Assembly: GCA_021604545.1 (NCBI GenBank)
Contig: BQJE01000001.1
Coordinates: 293,444-357,443 of the forward strand
Source of the DNA: Micavibrio sp.
Lineage (GTDB): Bacteria > Pseudomonadota > Alphaproteobacteria > Micavibrionales > Micavibrionaceae
Length of the DNA: 64,000 nt
Direction: 5' to 3'
The notes below the pieces were generated by a model. That model did not search any database, was not told the DNA's origin, and worked only from the letters and a program-made list of their open reading frames with translations. Positions 27,124 to 32,113 of the stretch are shown in pieces (position 1 is the stretch's first letter; the number at the start of each line of letters is the position of its first letter). Made by a program: the position numbers and the translations under genes.

Positions 27124-28591
27124 GGCACTAGATTGGACAGATTCACGCATAAATTTCAAGCTCCTATTTGCAGCCCTTATTGTACCACTATTAGCGGCCT
27201 GTAGTACAAATCCGGCCACGGGCGAGCAGCAATTTGCCGCCCTGATGTCGCCACAGCAGGAAGTGAAAGTAGGAGCGCAGGAGCATGAAAATGTTATTCA
27301 GCAATTTGGAATTTACGATAATCCGGCGTTAGCGGCTTACGTTAATCAGGTCGGTCAGAAAGTCGCACAATACACCGAGCGTTCAGATGTTCGTTATCAG
27401 TTCTTTGTTGTTGATTCTCCGATCACAAATGCTTTCGCTTTGCCGGGTGGTTATATATATGTCTCGCGAGGTTTGCTGGCACTAGCCAATAGTGAGGCCG
27501 AGTTGGCAGGTGTCCTTGGTCATGAAGCCGGGCACATTACCGGGCGTCATTCAGCCGAACGTTATTCGACAGGTGTTGTAACGTCTTTGGGTGCGGCTGT
27601 TATTGCGGCGGCGCTTGGTAGTGATACAGCGTCGCAGGCTTTGGGTGTTGGTTCTGATTTATTGTTAAAATCATATTCGCGTGGGCAGGAGCATGAAGCT
27701 GATAGTCTTGGTATTCGTTATCTGGCACGTTCGGGCTATGACACCAAAGCGATGACCTGGTTTTTAACCAATCTGCAGGCTGACTCGGCTTTGCAAGGCA
27801 AATTAGCTGGTCGAGATTCACAAGGGGCGAGTTATTTCTCTACCCACCCGGCAACATCGGAGCGCATTTCTAAAACGGTGTCCGAAGCAAACAGTCATCA
27901 GGGGCAGGGACGCGTGAACCGCGACGGTTACCTGAAAATGTTGAGTGGTATGCCATTTGGTGACAGTGCAGCCCAAGGCTTTGTGCGCGGTCAGGATTTT
28001 TATCACACGAAAATGGGCTTTACGTTTAAAGTGCCTGATGGATTTCATCTTGTGAACCAGCCCAATGCCGTGGTAGCGACATCAAAATCTGGCGCGGTTG
28101 TATTGTTTGATATGGCTGGCAACAAGCAGGGCGTTGATGCTGCGACCTATCTCGGTCAGACATGGATGAAGGACCAGCCGATTAACGGTATTGAACGTGT
28201 TAAGGTCGGTGGTATGAACGCGGCATCTGCCGGATTTCAGGGCCGGGTAAACGGTCAGCCGATGAATATCCGTCTGGTGGCGATTGAATGGAAGCCCGAT
28301 ACTATAGCGCGCTTCCAAATTGCTATTCCGGCTAATGCATCGCAGGTGTTGCTCGAGGATCTAAAGCGCACGACTTATAGCTTCCGTAACTTAAGTGCCA
28401 GTGAGCGGCAATCGATTCAGCCTTATAAGCTGCGCATTGTGACGGCGGCAGTCAGCGATAGTGTTGCTTCACTAGCGCGCAAGATGCCGTTCGATGATTA
28501 TCAAGAAGAGCGCTTTCGTGTTTTGAACGGTTTGAACCCGAATGAAGGTATTCAGCCCGGACGGCAATATAAGATTGTTTCGAGTCGGTAG
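27122..28591 (+). CDS. M48 family metalloprotease lipoprotein
   Basis: 489 residues. A lipoprotein signal ends LLAAC (Cys near 27). The zinc site is HEAGHITGRHSAE (about 138-150) with the third ligand in QEHEADSLGIRYLARSG (about 190). This is the BepA/YfgC-like type acting on outer-membrane assembly or turnover in the periplasm. The C-terminal part (about 430-489, SIQPYKLRIVTAAVSDSVAS, ending IQPGRQYKIV) resembles a LysM-like module seen in alphaproteobacterial members. GAAGG lies 8 bases before the ATG. Confidence 0.92.
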   Translation: MALDWTDSRINFKLLFAALIVPLLAACSTNPATGEQQFAALMSPQQEVKVGAQEHENVIQQFGIYDNPALAAYVNQVGQKVAQYTERSDVRYQFFVVDSPITNAFALPGGYIYVSRGLLALANSEAELAGVLGHEAGHITGRHSAERYSTGVVTSLGAAVIAAALGSDTASQALGVGSDLLLKSYSRGQEHEADSLGIRYLARSGYDTKAMTWFLTNLQADSALQGKLAGRDSQGASYFSTHPATSERISKTVSEANSHQGQGRVNRDGYLKMLSGMPFGDSAAQGFVRGQDFYHTKMGFTFKVPDGFHLVNQPNAVVATSKSGAVVLFDMAGNKQGVDAATYLGQTWMKDQPINGIERVKVGGMNAASAGFQGRVNGQPMNIRLVAIEWKPDTIARFQIAIPANASQVLLEDLKRTTYSFRNLSASERQSIQPYKLRIVTAAVSDSVASLARKMPFDDYQEERFRVLNGLNPNEGIQPGRQYKIVSSR

Positions 28592-28592
28592 T

Positions 28593-29474
28593 TTAACCCT
28601 CCAGAAACAAATCGCCTTTGTCTTCGACCATATCGTTGATGGAAGTTTTTAGTTTGTCCAGCGCGCGGGCCTCTAGCTGGCGGACGCGTTCCTTGCTGAT
28701 GCCAAGGCCTTTGCCCAGCGTTTCCAGCGTCACCACTTCATCACCGAGGTGACGTTTGCGGATAATGGTTTGTTCGCGATCGCTAAGGCCTCCCAGTGCT
28801 TGGTTCAGCCATGCCGAGCGTGTCTGTGCATCTTTGGTGCCGACAACAACTTCTTCGGGGTTGGGGCGCTCGTCCGCCAGAAAGCTCTGCCATTCTTCAT
28901 CGCTCTCTTCGCTGAGGCGGGCATTGAGGGAACTATCGCCGCCGGACAGGCGTTGTTCCATGCTCTCAACCTCTTTTGTTTTAACGCCAAGGTCATTGGC
29001 AATGAATTCCCGGCCCTCGTCATCAAGGCTTTTGCCGTTCTTTTCGATCTGGGCGCGGAGGCGGCGCAGGTTAAAAAAGAGTGATTTTTGGGCCGCCGTT
29101 GTACCGGTCCTTACAATTGACCAGTTGCGCAACACGTAGTCCTGTATCGCGGCGCGGATCCACCAGGTCGCATAGGTTGAAAAGCGAAGGTCGCGCTCTG
29201 GATCGAACCGCTCGGCAGCTTGCATGAGGCCGATATTGCCCTCCTGAATGAGGTCGCCCAAGGGGAGGCCGTAATTTCTGAATTTCGACGCCATCGCCAC
29301 AACCAGCCGTGTGTAAGAGCTTACCATCTCATGCAGGGCTTTTTCATCGCGTTTATCGCGCCAGCGCCGGGCCAGATCAAGCTCATGATCCTTTTCCAGC
29401 ATGGGGGCATCCATCGCCGTTTTGATATAGGCGGTGTTGGCTCTTTGGGTTTGTGGGTCGTCAATATGTGCCAT
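28593..29474 (-). CDS. rpoH: RNA polymerase heat-shock sigma factor sigma-32
   Basis: 293 residues. Region 2 with DLIQEGNIGLMQAAERFDPE and RFSTYATWWIRAAIQDYVLR, the RpoH-box stretch NWSIVRTGTTAAQKSLFFNL, and region 4 HTH (TLETLGKGLGISKERVRQLE). Directs transcription of chaperone and protease genes. A good AAGGAG site and a sigma-70-type promoter lie upstream. Convergent with the M48 protease gene, one base apart. Alphaproteobacteria often carry two rpoH genes; only this one is in view. Confidence 0.97.
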   Translation of the reverse strand: MAHIDDPQTQRANTAYIKTAMDAPMLEKDHELDLARRWRDKRDEKALHEMVSSYTRLVVAMASKFRNYGLPLGDLIQEGNIGLMQAAERFDPERDLRFSTYATWWIRAAIQDYVLRNWSIVRTGTTAAQKSLFFNLRRLRAQIEKNGKSLDDEGREFIANDLGVKTKEVESMEQRLSGGDSSLNARLSEESDEEWQSFLADERPNPEEVVVGTKDAQTRSAWLNQALGGLSDREQTIIRKRHLGDEVVTLETLGKGLGISKERVRQLEARALDKLKTSINDMVEDKGDLFLEG

Positions 29475-29516
29475 GTCAATTCTCCTTTTCGACTCGATAC
29501 TGTACTGATTGGTACA

Positions 29517-29545
29517 ACATTAGCTTATTCGTATCAGGAATGCAA
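29517..29545 (-). promoter_or_regulatory. probable rpoH promoter
   Basis: On the minus strand TTGCAT (29540-29545) and TAATGT (29517-29522) are spaced by 17 bases. The implied transcript starts about 35 bases before the ATG. The fit is good to a housekeeping sigma promoter, but untested. Confidence 0.5.
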
Positions 29546-29634
29546 ATCGTTACGAAGTTCTAAAATTTATACGTGCCATAGCGGCAATCCCTGCGAAAAC
29601 AGGGGGTATAATTATAGAAAGTGTGTGGGTTGTT

Positions 29635-30453
29635 CTAAGCTTCGAGCATTTGGAAGCTATCACCGGATTGATCAAAGCCTGCACAGACGAGGGGGCCGCC
29701 AAAGCCGCAGCCTCCATCTATCGTTGCTGTGATGCAATTCATTTTGATGCCACCATGATCGGGATCGTAACCACGTACGACTTTTTCAAAAGGGGCGTAG
29801 GGGGCATCAATGGCTTCGAATTCCTTGCCGGCCCACCAGAAATTATCATTCTGATCGCTCAGGCTTTTCTGTCCGTCAATGCCGGCATGGACAAACAGCA
29901 TGGGGTAATCAGCGTCTTCATTTGTATGGGCCGCGCGCAAAAGCTGGGTGCCGAATATTTCATGGCCCGGGTGGTTTCTTACGGTTTCGCGTATTTTGCC
30001 TGTCCATTTGGTCAGGCCCATCACACCGGCACGGCAGGCTTCGATGCCGTCATGCGGTGACAGGCCGTAGGCATAAAGTGTATTGGACAGTCCATTGCCC
30101 AGCATCCACAGCAGTACATCGGCAGGGTTGGGGGCGAACTGGATCTGCAGTAGTTTTTGCCACATTTCTTCCTGCGTGCCACGTAAATAGATAAGGTCAT
30201 GAGCCATCATTGCCGGTTGTGCCAAAACCAACCTACGAAAAGCCAGGATTTCATCAACGCTTTCAACCGCGCGCTCGCCATAGCCGATATAATTCCCAAG
30301 ATAGATAATTTTGTCGCCGGGCCTTATATGTTCGAGCAGGGCGTCATGAAGGGCTGTTAATTTATCGACTTCACCGTGGATGGCTGATATGGCCCATATC
30401 CGTTTGGGAGAGCCAAGAGTGGTAAAGCGATTGTCTTTAATGGTTTTGCTCAC
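29635..30453 (-). CDS. PPP-type metallophosphatase homologue with lost metal ligands
   Basis: About 272 residues from a GTG start; no in-frame ATG is available, and TTG or GTG codons up to 30525 are alternatives. The chain follows the Ser/Thr phosphatase fold motif by motif, but the ligands are replaced. GDxHG reads SAIHG, GDxxDRG reads GNYIGYG, GNHE reads GTQE, and the later GH motif reads VRGYDPDHGG. The FVHAGI stretch and the QNDNFWW block are kept. It is therefore probably a non-catalytic binding or regulatory protein. It follows carD after a terminator. Confidence 0.75.
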   Translation of the reverse strand: MSKTIKDNRFTTLGSPKRIWAISAIHGEVDKLTALHDALLEHIRPGDKIIYLGNYIGYGERAVESVDEILAFRRLVLAQPAMMAHDLIYLRGTQEEMWQKLLQIQFAPNPADVLLWMLGNGLSNTLYAYGLSPHDGIEACRAGVMGLTKWTGKIRETVRNHPGHEIFGTQLLRAAHTNEDADYPMLFVHAGIDGQKSLSDQNDNFWWAGKEFEAIDAPYAPFEKVVRGYDPDHGGIKMNCITATIDGGCGFGGPLVCAGFDQSGDSFQMLEA

Positions 30454-30551
30454 GATTGATACGGGGCTCACATAAAGGGGCAAAATGAGAAAAATACGTA
30501 AAGAGAGGAGATTCTGAAGAACCAATTGCCAGAATCATATAGAGTATACAA

Positions 30552-30598
30552 TAAAATCAGGCGCATAGGAAGGTTAAAGTCCTTATGCGCCTGATTTT
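30552..30598 (-). terminator. terminator downstream of carD
   Basis: A 15-base perfect stem (AAAATCAGGCGCATA and its complement) extended by GGA/TCC with one bulge, loop about 10 bases, T-rich on the minus-strand 3' side. It begins 30 bases after the carD stop. Confidence 0.8.
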
Positions 30599-30627
30599 GA
30601 ATGATAATCGTAATATTTTTGGAAGTT

Positions 30628-31152
30628 TTAGGCTGCCTTTTTGGCTTTAACCTCTTTTTTCAACATTTTTTCAAGACGCTCGGTGGCCTTTTCATCCGTG
30701 ATTTTCTCAACGACGGCTACTTCGCGGGCCAGTCTTTCCAGTGCGGATTGATAAATCTGGCGTTCTGAATAGGATTGCTCTGTATCATCATTGCTGCGTT
30801 TAAGGTCACGAAGAACCTCTGCGATGGAAACAGGGTCACCTGAATTAATCTTTGTTTCGTATTCCTGGGCGCGGCGGCTCCACATGGTACGGCGGATGCG
30901 AGAGCGACCTTTGAGCGTTGTAAGTGCATCTTTTAGGCGGTCATTGGTGCTGAGCTTGCGCAAACCCGAAGATTCAGCCTTTATGACTGGAATTTTAAGG
31001 CGCATACGCTCTTTTTCAAAGCTGACAACATAAAGATTCACGTCCATACCGGCAATGGTCTGTGTTTCCAAGCCTTCGATTTGTCCGACCCCATGGGCCG
31101 CATAAACAACATAATCACCTGTAGAGAAGTCAAAATTATCATTGTCAGCCAT
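30628..31152 (-). CDS. carD: CarD family transcription regulator
   Basis: 174 residues. The N-terminal RNA polymerase-interacting Tudor-like domain starts TGDYVVYAAHGVGQIEGLET. The helical C-terminal DNA-binding part carries the family tryptophan context SRIRRTMWSRRAQEYETKI, then a basic helix (KATERLEKMLKKEVKAKKAA). CarD proteins stabilise open promoter complexes, often at rRNA and stress genes. The gene is monocistronic, with a 259-base upstream region and its own terminator. Confidence 0.94.
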   Translation of the reverse strand: MADNDNFDFSTGDYVVYAAHGVGQIEGLETQTIAGMDVNLYVVSFEKERMRLKIPVIKAESSGLRKLSTNDRLKDALTTLKGRSRIRRTMWSRRAQEYETKINSGDPVSIAEVLRDLKRSNDDTEQSYSERQIYQSALERLAREVAVVEKITDEKATERLEKMLKKEVKAKKAA

Positions 31153-31187
31153 GTTTTTTCACCTTTGTTCGTTAAAGTTTTTATTAA

Positions 31188-31210
31188 GCGTCAGGGTAAT
31201 AACGTGACGC
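31188..31210. other. inverted repeat upstream of carD
   Basis: Arms GCGTCA (31188-31193) and TGACGC (31205-31210) around an 11-base centre, 36 bases upstream of carD. It could be an operator for carD or part of a terminator for the 31412 gene. No partner protein is identified. Confidence 0.3.
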
Positions 31211-31411
31211 CGGTTTTTTAGTCCCGTAAAACGAAGTAAGCAATGCCTGTGCCATATCCTGATAGATAGTGGCAGCGCCGCTTAAAACCGTTGATAACTG
31301 GGCTTACGGGAAGGGAGTGTACTCGAAATTCCGTAAAATTTCAACAAATAAGTGCAAATAGCCCGACTCTTATCCTTGTAGTCGCTTAAGCCTAGAGCGC
31401 AAGACCCTATT

Positions 31412-32113
31412 TTAGTGCCGGCTTTTAATGTCTTCGGCGCTATCCCTGATAATCGCAAGCTTATGGCAGGGTATGAAGTTTTTATCGAGAATGCGGGATG
31501 TTGTGGATAATTTGAATGATGCACCAAGTAATTTATGCGCGGTGCGGCGGTGATTTTCTCCAAACTCCATAGCAATCAGATCCTGAACAATTTTATCAGA
31601 CAAATCTGCCAGTATATTGGTCAGGCTAGAGCCATCGGCGCAAACCGCATTTCCTTGCTTTGTTTTAACAAATCCTTTGAAAAATTCGGTGTTCGGATCC
31701 TCTTGATAAAGGCTATTAATATAAACCTCTCCCAGGGAACAGCTTTGTCGGAAGCCACGGGAGAAACGACGGAAATGGTGCCTCTCAAGATCGAGGGCAT
31801 AGCCGGCAAAAATGGCCGCACTTCTGACGATAGCCGTTATTTTTTGTGTGTCGAATGTTTTGGTCAGATCAATGGTCGTGCAGTCACTGAACATCAACGC
31901 TTTTATCTGTGTGGTTTTTTCAAGATGAGCGGCATAAGCCAGTGCATCACTGGAAAAACCGTCCAGAGCGACGTTCATAAGGTGAGCATCCCCCTCCGTC
32001 TGGATGACACTCAGCTTGTTCGTGCAGGCATCGTATTGATAGTAAAAACCAGTGCCCCACGCTGTGAAACTCCCCTGCGGGTCAGTTTCCTGATGCAGTA
32101 ACGTAAAACTCAT
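31412..32113 (-). CDS. hypothetical protein
   Basis: 233 residues, soluble, with about six Cys, no signal peptide. Composition is mixed alpha/beta (LLHQETDPQGSFTAWGTGFY, CTTIDLTKTFDTQKITAIV). I recognise no domain; a PAS-like sensory fold in the N-terminal half is conceivable but not supported by a clear motif. Neighbours are carD downstream and an LD-carboxypeptidase upstream on the same strand, with over 100 bases on each side, so it is probably transcribed alone. Confidence 0.6.
   Translation of the reverse strand: MSFTLLHQETDPQGSFTAWGTGFYYQYDACTNKLSVIQTEGDAHLMNVALDGFSSDALAYAAHLEKTTQIKALMFSDCTTIDLTKTFDTQKITAIVRSAAIFAGYALDLERHHFRRFSRGFRQSCSLGEVYINSLYQEDPNTEFFKGFVKTKQGNAVCADGSSLTNILADLSDKIVQDLIAMEFGENHRRTAHKLLGASFKLSTTSRILDKNFIPCHKLAIIRDSAEDIKSRH

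Follow-up and report, generated by a model that had tools for sequence, protein, structure and literature searches.

A gene in a Micavibrio sp. genome (GenBank assembly GCA_021604545.1, contig BQJE01000001.1) encodes a protein that can be aligned with PPP-type phosphatases even though their metal-binding motifs are altered in it. This raises the question of whether the gene is a phosphatase in decay or a pseudoenzyme kept for some other role, and what that role might be. It was examined within a stretch of 64,000 nt (positions 293,444–357,443 of the contig, forward strand), here called the window, to which all coordinates refer (Table 1). Sequence comparison and structure modelling indicate that the gene very probably specifies a PPP-fold pseudophosphatase without catalytic activity. 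A fuller reading, that it belongs to a class-specific family of single origin and serves, without catalysis, as a binding module whose likeliest setting is CarD/RNA-polymerase or sigma-32 control, may be right or wrong in about equal measure.

Table 1. Features of the pseudo-PPP locus and its surroundings (window coordinates)
Feature	Coordinates	Strand	Details
Pseudo-PPP CDS	29635..30453	-	272 aa, GTG start, stop included; ORF, conserved N-terminus and AlphaFold2 pLDDT 94
Motif I, SAIHG for GDxHG	30373..30387	-	ligand Asp to Ala, His kept
Motif II, GNYIGYG for GDxxDRG	30277..30297	-	bridging Asp to Asn, second Asp to Gly
Motif III, GTQE for GNHE	30169..30180	-	ligand Asn variable, catalytic His to Gln, Glu kept
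Motif IV, FVHAG	29881..29895	-	His present; many relatives have Asn or Ser
Motif V, RGYDP for (H)GH	29761..29775	-	ligand His to Tyr; family-specific Arg and Asp
carD/cdnL homologue, upstream neighbour	30628..31152	-	Pfam CarD_C (E 2.3e-24), CarD_TRCF_RID (E 2.2e-14)
Sigma-70 family factor, rpoH-like, downstream	28593..29474	-	Pfam Sigma70_r2 (E 1.1e-20), r4 (E 1e-14)
Terminator-like hairpin with U-rich tail	30553..30598	-	between carD and the pseudo-PPP gene; RNA folding

The coding sequence is intact and lies where the original prediction had placed it, with matching stop and GTG codons. The mechanical open reading frame reaches further, to a TTG at 30525; the GTG at 30453 agrees with the onset of conservation in relatives (DxRFxxLGxPxRIWA). 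Every string quoted in that prediction (SAIHG, GNYIGYG, GTQE(E), RGY, FVHAG, QNDNFWW) was found in the protein. Labels such as N54 and R227 give positions in the 272-aa product; the numbering of the ligands (D64, H66, D92, N124, H173 and H248, with D95 and H125) follows PP1.

Searched as a single sequence, the protein matched neither a Pfam or NCBIfam family nor any PDB chain at E ≤ 1. The gathering cut-off of PF00149 (Metallophos) was not reached, nor was the NCBIfam cut-off for ApaH (symmetrical Ap4A hydrolase), neither giving any match to the window protein, and the family has no Pfam or NCBIfam model of its own. Among 80 relatives, weak matches were seen to PF00149 (four members, best E 0.0015), to TIGR00668 (three) and to the closest NCBIfam model, the ApaH-like PRK00166 (31 members, best E 1.9e-6). 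Run against the window's own genome, however, a profile built from nine canonical PPPs of related genomes detects the gene (E 9.6e-14), and a profile of the family matches RLPH2 (Rhizobiales-like phosphatase 2, PDB 5vjv) at E 2e-6. Judged by these profiles, homology to the PPPs is real, yet it lies below detection by curated models. Modelling agrees with this. The AlphaFold2 model (80 sequences) has a mean pLDDT of 94.0 and a pTM of 0.91, and Foldseek returned 181 PDB matches to it at E ≤ 0.001, with lambda PP and RLPH2 on top. Structural Z-scores were 21.8 for 5vjv, 20.2 for the phosphatase domain of PnkP (4j6o), 20.0 for 2qjc, 19.2 for lambda PP (1g5b), 17.6 for ApaH and about 16–17 for PP1 and PP5. 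The predicted structure thus has the calcineurin-like/PPP fold along its whole chain (Z 16–22 to PPPs across 196–226 residues), as had been proposed from the sequence.

Genome searches fetched 230 matching loci, which comprised 215 of the family and 15 canonical paralogues, with no scores between 66 and 170 bits. After identical cores were removed, 188 distinct family sequences remained. All 15 canonical paralogues have the six ligands intact, whereas family members keep none (12 sequences), one (93), two (76) or three (7). The ligand set of an active PPP (GDxHG, GDxxDRG, GNHE, (V)H and GH) is incomplete in the window protein and in all 188 sequences, and alignment of homologues, the check that had been suggested, revealed the same substitutions throughout. 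The first Asp of motif I is replaced in every case (A 134, S 45, C 4, P 3, T 1, gap 1), and the His of this motif, H26 in the window protein, is lost in 20 relatives. In motif II, the bridging position D92 is N in 180 sequences (G 4, D 3, S 1) and the second Asp, D95, is G in 187 and A in one; the position of the Arg in GDxxDRG varies (Y, H, R, F and others). The Asn position of motif III varies, with N in only four sequences, the catalytic His (H125) is Q in 177 and H in two, and the Glu is kept in 187. The His of motif IV is H in 88, N in 64, S in 25, A in seven and P in four. The last His, that of GH, is Y in 92, F in 70 and H in four, the other 22 sequences being spread over ten residues, so that G[YF] is found in 162; beside it, the family-specific R227 and D230 occur in 182 and 163 sequences, respectively.

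The claim that all four metal-binding signatures are altered therefore holds for the motifs but not for every ligand, since the window protein retains two of the six classical ligands, H26 of motif I and H189 of FVHAG. Likewise, FVHAG, which had been read as a retained fold-bearing stretch, is indeed present here but is itself a ligand motif, and in 100 of the 188 relatives its His is replaced by N, S, A or P. Other positions are nearly invariant within the family and mostly absent from canonical PPPs (W20, D47, N54, G57, F72, R73, D86, Q94, W150, G163, D203, W206, R227, G235 and G250), and a set of structural residues is common to both groups (G53, G92, E95, G121, Y129, G191, Q201, G228, D246 and G253). 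This mixture of fixed new residues and drifting positions suggests a remodelled site rather than a neglected one.

Several known systems offer comparisons. RLPH2, a named phosphatase, is the best solved match (226 residues at 3.2 Å, 18% identity), but it keeps GDIHG and GDYCDRG where the window protein has SAIHG and GNYIGYG; the intact PPP motifs seen in 5vjv, which would mark a member of RLPH2, are lacking. The PnkP phosphatase domain, lambda PP and ApaH are metal-dependent phosphoesterases of the same fold, and PnkP has a C-terminal D-x-G-C-x-F-G-G stretch in common with the family. The family differs from all three in having no metal site and in a set of Trp, Arg and Gln positions peculiar to it. 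The canonical PPPs of the same order (L041–L050) are homologous along the chain, yet the 15 canonical paralogues examined keep the six ligands and form a separate clade. VPS29 of retromer and the B-subunits of eukaryotic replicative DNA polymerases are non-catalytic metallophosphoesterase folds, and likewise use a calcineurin-like fold as a protein-binding scaffold after catalytic loss, although they belong to other branches of the superfamily, are eukaryotic and have other partners.

The motif losses, if one sequence is read alone, could indicate a decaying phosphatase gene, but the probability of this is practically nil: the substitutions are common to 188 distinct sequences, selection is purifying and the frames are open. 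Across close pairs, dN/dS is ~0.03–0.15. Against a 91%-identical relative it is 0.048 by NG86 and 0.031 by YN00, and other close pairs give 0.048–0.149 by NG86, with dS near or above saturation in more distant pairs. In 213 of 215 members a single open frame spans motif I through the C-terminal motif, the other two being one contig-end fragment seen twice, and the stops counted inside some genome-search matches leave the family frames uninterrupted. Catalytic residues lost throughout a family whose fold and gene are held under selection are what a pseudophosphatase should display, and this combination was found. The original prediction of a retained pseudoenzyme is thereby upheld, and the outcome that would have spoken against it, homologues with intact ligands alongside frameshifts in this gene, was not seen; the PPPs with intact ligands fall elsewhere. 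In a tree of 53 family members and 15 canonical PPPs, a single branch separates the two groups with a support of 100/100, and the family stem is long (2.14 changes per column). This is in line with a single loss of the ligands followed by vertical descent, within a tree limited to the PPPs found by these searches; a closer live relative may exist elsewhere.

The family gene was found in 42 of the 58 genomes sampled from the genus, family and order, the window's own included. It is missing from 16, and is thus not essential everywhere; three more of the 45 matching genomes (G005, G020 and G022) carry a canonical PPP alone. Of the 289 genomes in the class sample, 101 matched at E ≤ 1e-10; among these, 98 carry the family gene (best E 5.3e-50 or lower) and three have only canonical PPPs. 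Matches in the phylum sample (13 of 398 genomes) all lie within Alphaproteobacteria. A named set, for which 80 of the 425 confirmed loci were retained, has among its carriers many Micavibrio-type MAGs, Azospirillum, Magnetospirillum, Nitrospirillum, Skermanella, Arenibaculum and Inquilinus. Micavibrio stands under Bdellovibrionota in the NCBI taxonomy, while the genome set used here groups it with the Azospirillum-type carriers in one class. No relative was confirmed in viral contigs and none was found in plasmids (tblastn); with all 13 phylum-level matches in one class, a lateral or phage origin was rejected.

In the window, the gene lies between a carD/cdnL homologue and a sigma factor gene that we take to be rpoH. 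The linkage to carD that would be expected of a CarD/RNA-polymerase accessory factor is widespread: of the 95 family loci in the class sample, 93 have at least 700 bp of upstream sequence, and 79 of these are preceded by carD in the same orientation, 75 of them within 400 bp. The remaining 14 have no upstream carD in flanks of up to 2.5 kb, and in one of these carD is downstream on the opposite strand. In the named set, consisting mostly of close relatives, carD is upstream in 72 of 78 loci (61 within 400 bp). Of 91 class genomes, 31 have the rpoH-like gene downstream at a distance of no more than 600 bp. Blind clustering of neighbours at the 95 class loci gave carD in 82, a ferredoxin-like gene, presumably fdxA, in 66 and rpoH in 36, showing that the link to carD outlasts that to rpoH. 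Gaps between the carD stop and the conserved region can be as short as 14 bp in the class sample, and such proximity, seen in many genomes, points to co-transcription in them.

The arrangement in the window itself includes a terminator-like hairpin between carD and the pseudo-PPP gene, so that the two may be separately transcribed here. RNA folding of 30525–30627 gave a z-score of -5.97 relative to 200 shuffles, and nothing unusual was detected in the gap between the pseudo-PPP and rpoH genes (z -1.32). The hairpin is long and near-perfect, with a 9-base loop and A-rich/U-rich ends, and is possibly a bidirectional terminator. A consensus scan of 28400–31500 returned four promoter-like sites (3.5 expected) and no terminator-like ones; it overlooked the hairpin because its loop limit was 8. 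A short way upstream of carD, at 31412–32113 on the minus strand, is a gene for a 233-aa protein with no Pfam (E ≤ 1) or NCBIfam (E ≤ 0.01) match; 19 of the 80 named loci have a relative of it close to carD.

Of 32 genomes that lack the family gene, 28 yielded a carD locus on inspection. At six of the 28 (L231, L233, L235, L246, L250 and L251) carD is followed directly by rpoH, and at the others by different genes or unassigned frames. Three of the six (L231, L233 and L235) come from relatives in the same taxonomic family, and there carD abutting rpoH represents the empty site.

From these data the following mechanism can be sketched. Metal binding would have been lost once, ahead of the spread of an unnamed, vertically inherited alphaproteobacterial family. 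The protein may work without catalysis, as a binding module, with the reshaped former active-site face and the family-specific Trp and Arg residues touching a partner. The original prediction had put forward a sensor or a protein-binding role, and gene order now supplies a pointer that it lacked, carD upstream and rpoH downstream. In this way it could tune growth-rate- or stress-dependent transcription through a CarD(CdnL)/RNA-polymerase or sigma-32 circuit. That the partner belongs to either circuit is tentative, reaching even chances at most, and is drawn entirely from gene order. Work on Caulobacter reports that CdnL is an RNA-polymerase-binding protein that supports the transcription of rRNA (PMC5324124), and that it is cleared during starvation in a SpoT- and ClpXP-dependent manner (PMC11034885). 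A bolder version, less likely than not, would make the protein a class-wide and hitherto undescribed accessory factor of the alphaproteobacterial CarD(CdnL)-RNA polymerase system, derived from an inactivated PPP phosphatase, its active-site face now a docking or ligand-sensing surface. It might then be the first pseudophosphatase of the PPP family in bacteria to be linked to basal transcription.

Gene order could mislead, however, and the protein may be a conserved pseudoenzyme unrelated to CarD or RpoH that sits in a stable region with an inherited gene order. The six gene-less loci point this way, as their carD-rpoH adjacency could be ancestral and the neighbour passive. CarD itself bears no strong signature tied to the presence of the gene (four mild distinguishing positions between 151 loci with it and 28 without), and the hairpin parts the two genes in the window. 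Weighed against these are the far more frequent linkage to carD than to rpoH and the short gaps in many genomes, and an unrelated function is in our view somewhat doubtful. Rather less probable still is that the old pocket senses a small molecule, with a nucleotide or alarmone such as (p)ppGpp or a dinucleoside polyphosphate bound there but left unhydrolysed. The ApaH-like PRK00166 is the nearest NCBIfam model, the pocket replacements N54, G57, Q94 and R227 are fixed rather than drifting, and the gene adjoins growth and stress regulators, all of which would suit a sensor; yet the family does not conserve the GDxxDRG Arg, it has lost the phosphate-holding metals, and the Asn position of motif III drifts.

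A changed but still active enzyme, using one metal or new catalytic residues, appears very unlikely from the alignment. H26 and H189 are kept in the window protein and Arg227, Asp230 and Gln94 are nearly fixed in the family, but neither His is retained by all members, there is no family-wide ligand set, and some sequences have none of the six ligands. Pseudophosphatases elsewhere commonly act as decoys or regulators of active phosphatases, and such a role would here require an active PPP in the same cell. Strong canonical PPPs (E ≤ 2e-42) were detected in 12 of the 58 related genomes, nine of which also carry the family gene; the other 33 of the 42 carriers, including the window's own genome, have no strong match to this profile, which other PPP subtypes may escape. 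The family gene is thus independent of an active sister of that type, and a decoy function is disfavoured as extremely improbable. The sole Pfam Metallophos match in the window's own genome is another gene (L261 1501–2316; G000 C1:482086–482631), and by its sequence we take the product to be of the YmdB type. A pseudophosphatase working as a binding module, with CarD/RNA polymerase or sigma-32 as its candidate partner, is the reading preferred here.

Pseudophosphatases have been studied mainly in eukaryotes, and the PPP-family examples found in a literature search concern protists. That search covered open-licence papers, so its silence is weak evidence; it found no paper on this pseudo-PPP family and none joining CarD family transcriptional regulators with a metallophosphoesterase. 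A study on PPP origin (PMC8249667) does not mention inactive or pseudo PPPs, Azospirillum or Rhodospirill- names. We rate the PPP fold and the pseudophosphatase concept as already known, and as new a bacterial, class-specific PPP pseudophosphatase family beside a conserved transcription-factor neighbour. Here is a bacterial family of ~190 distinct sequences with a clear live-enzyme sister group and a single inferred loss, and its conserved neighbour, CarD/CdnL, is a regulator of rRNA and growth genes in one model alphaproteobacterium. Carriers among culturable genera (Azospirillum, Magnetospirillum, Nitrospirillum and Skermanella) make deletion and pull-down feasible, and these would tell whether CarD or RNA polymerase has a hidden partner.

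Two variants of the family were also recorded. In loci L113, L119 and L127, two titled Magnetospirillum and the third a Rhodospirillales MAG, the bridging Asp of motif II survives and the last His is Ser (AHDxHS pattern). The orthologue at L039 1998–3419 (G047) carries, in the loop preceding motif IV, an apparently disordered insertion of ~180 residues with abundant Ala, Pro, Ser and His.
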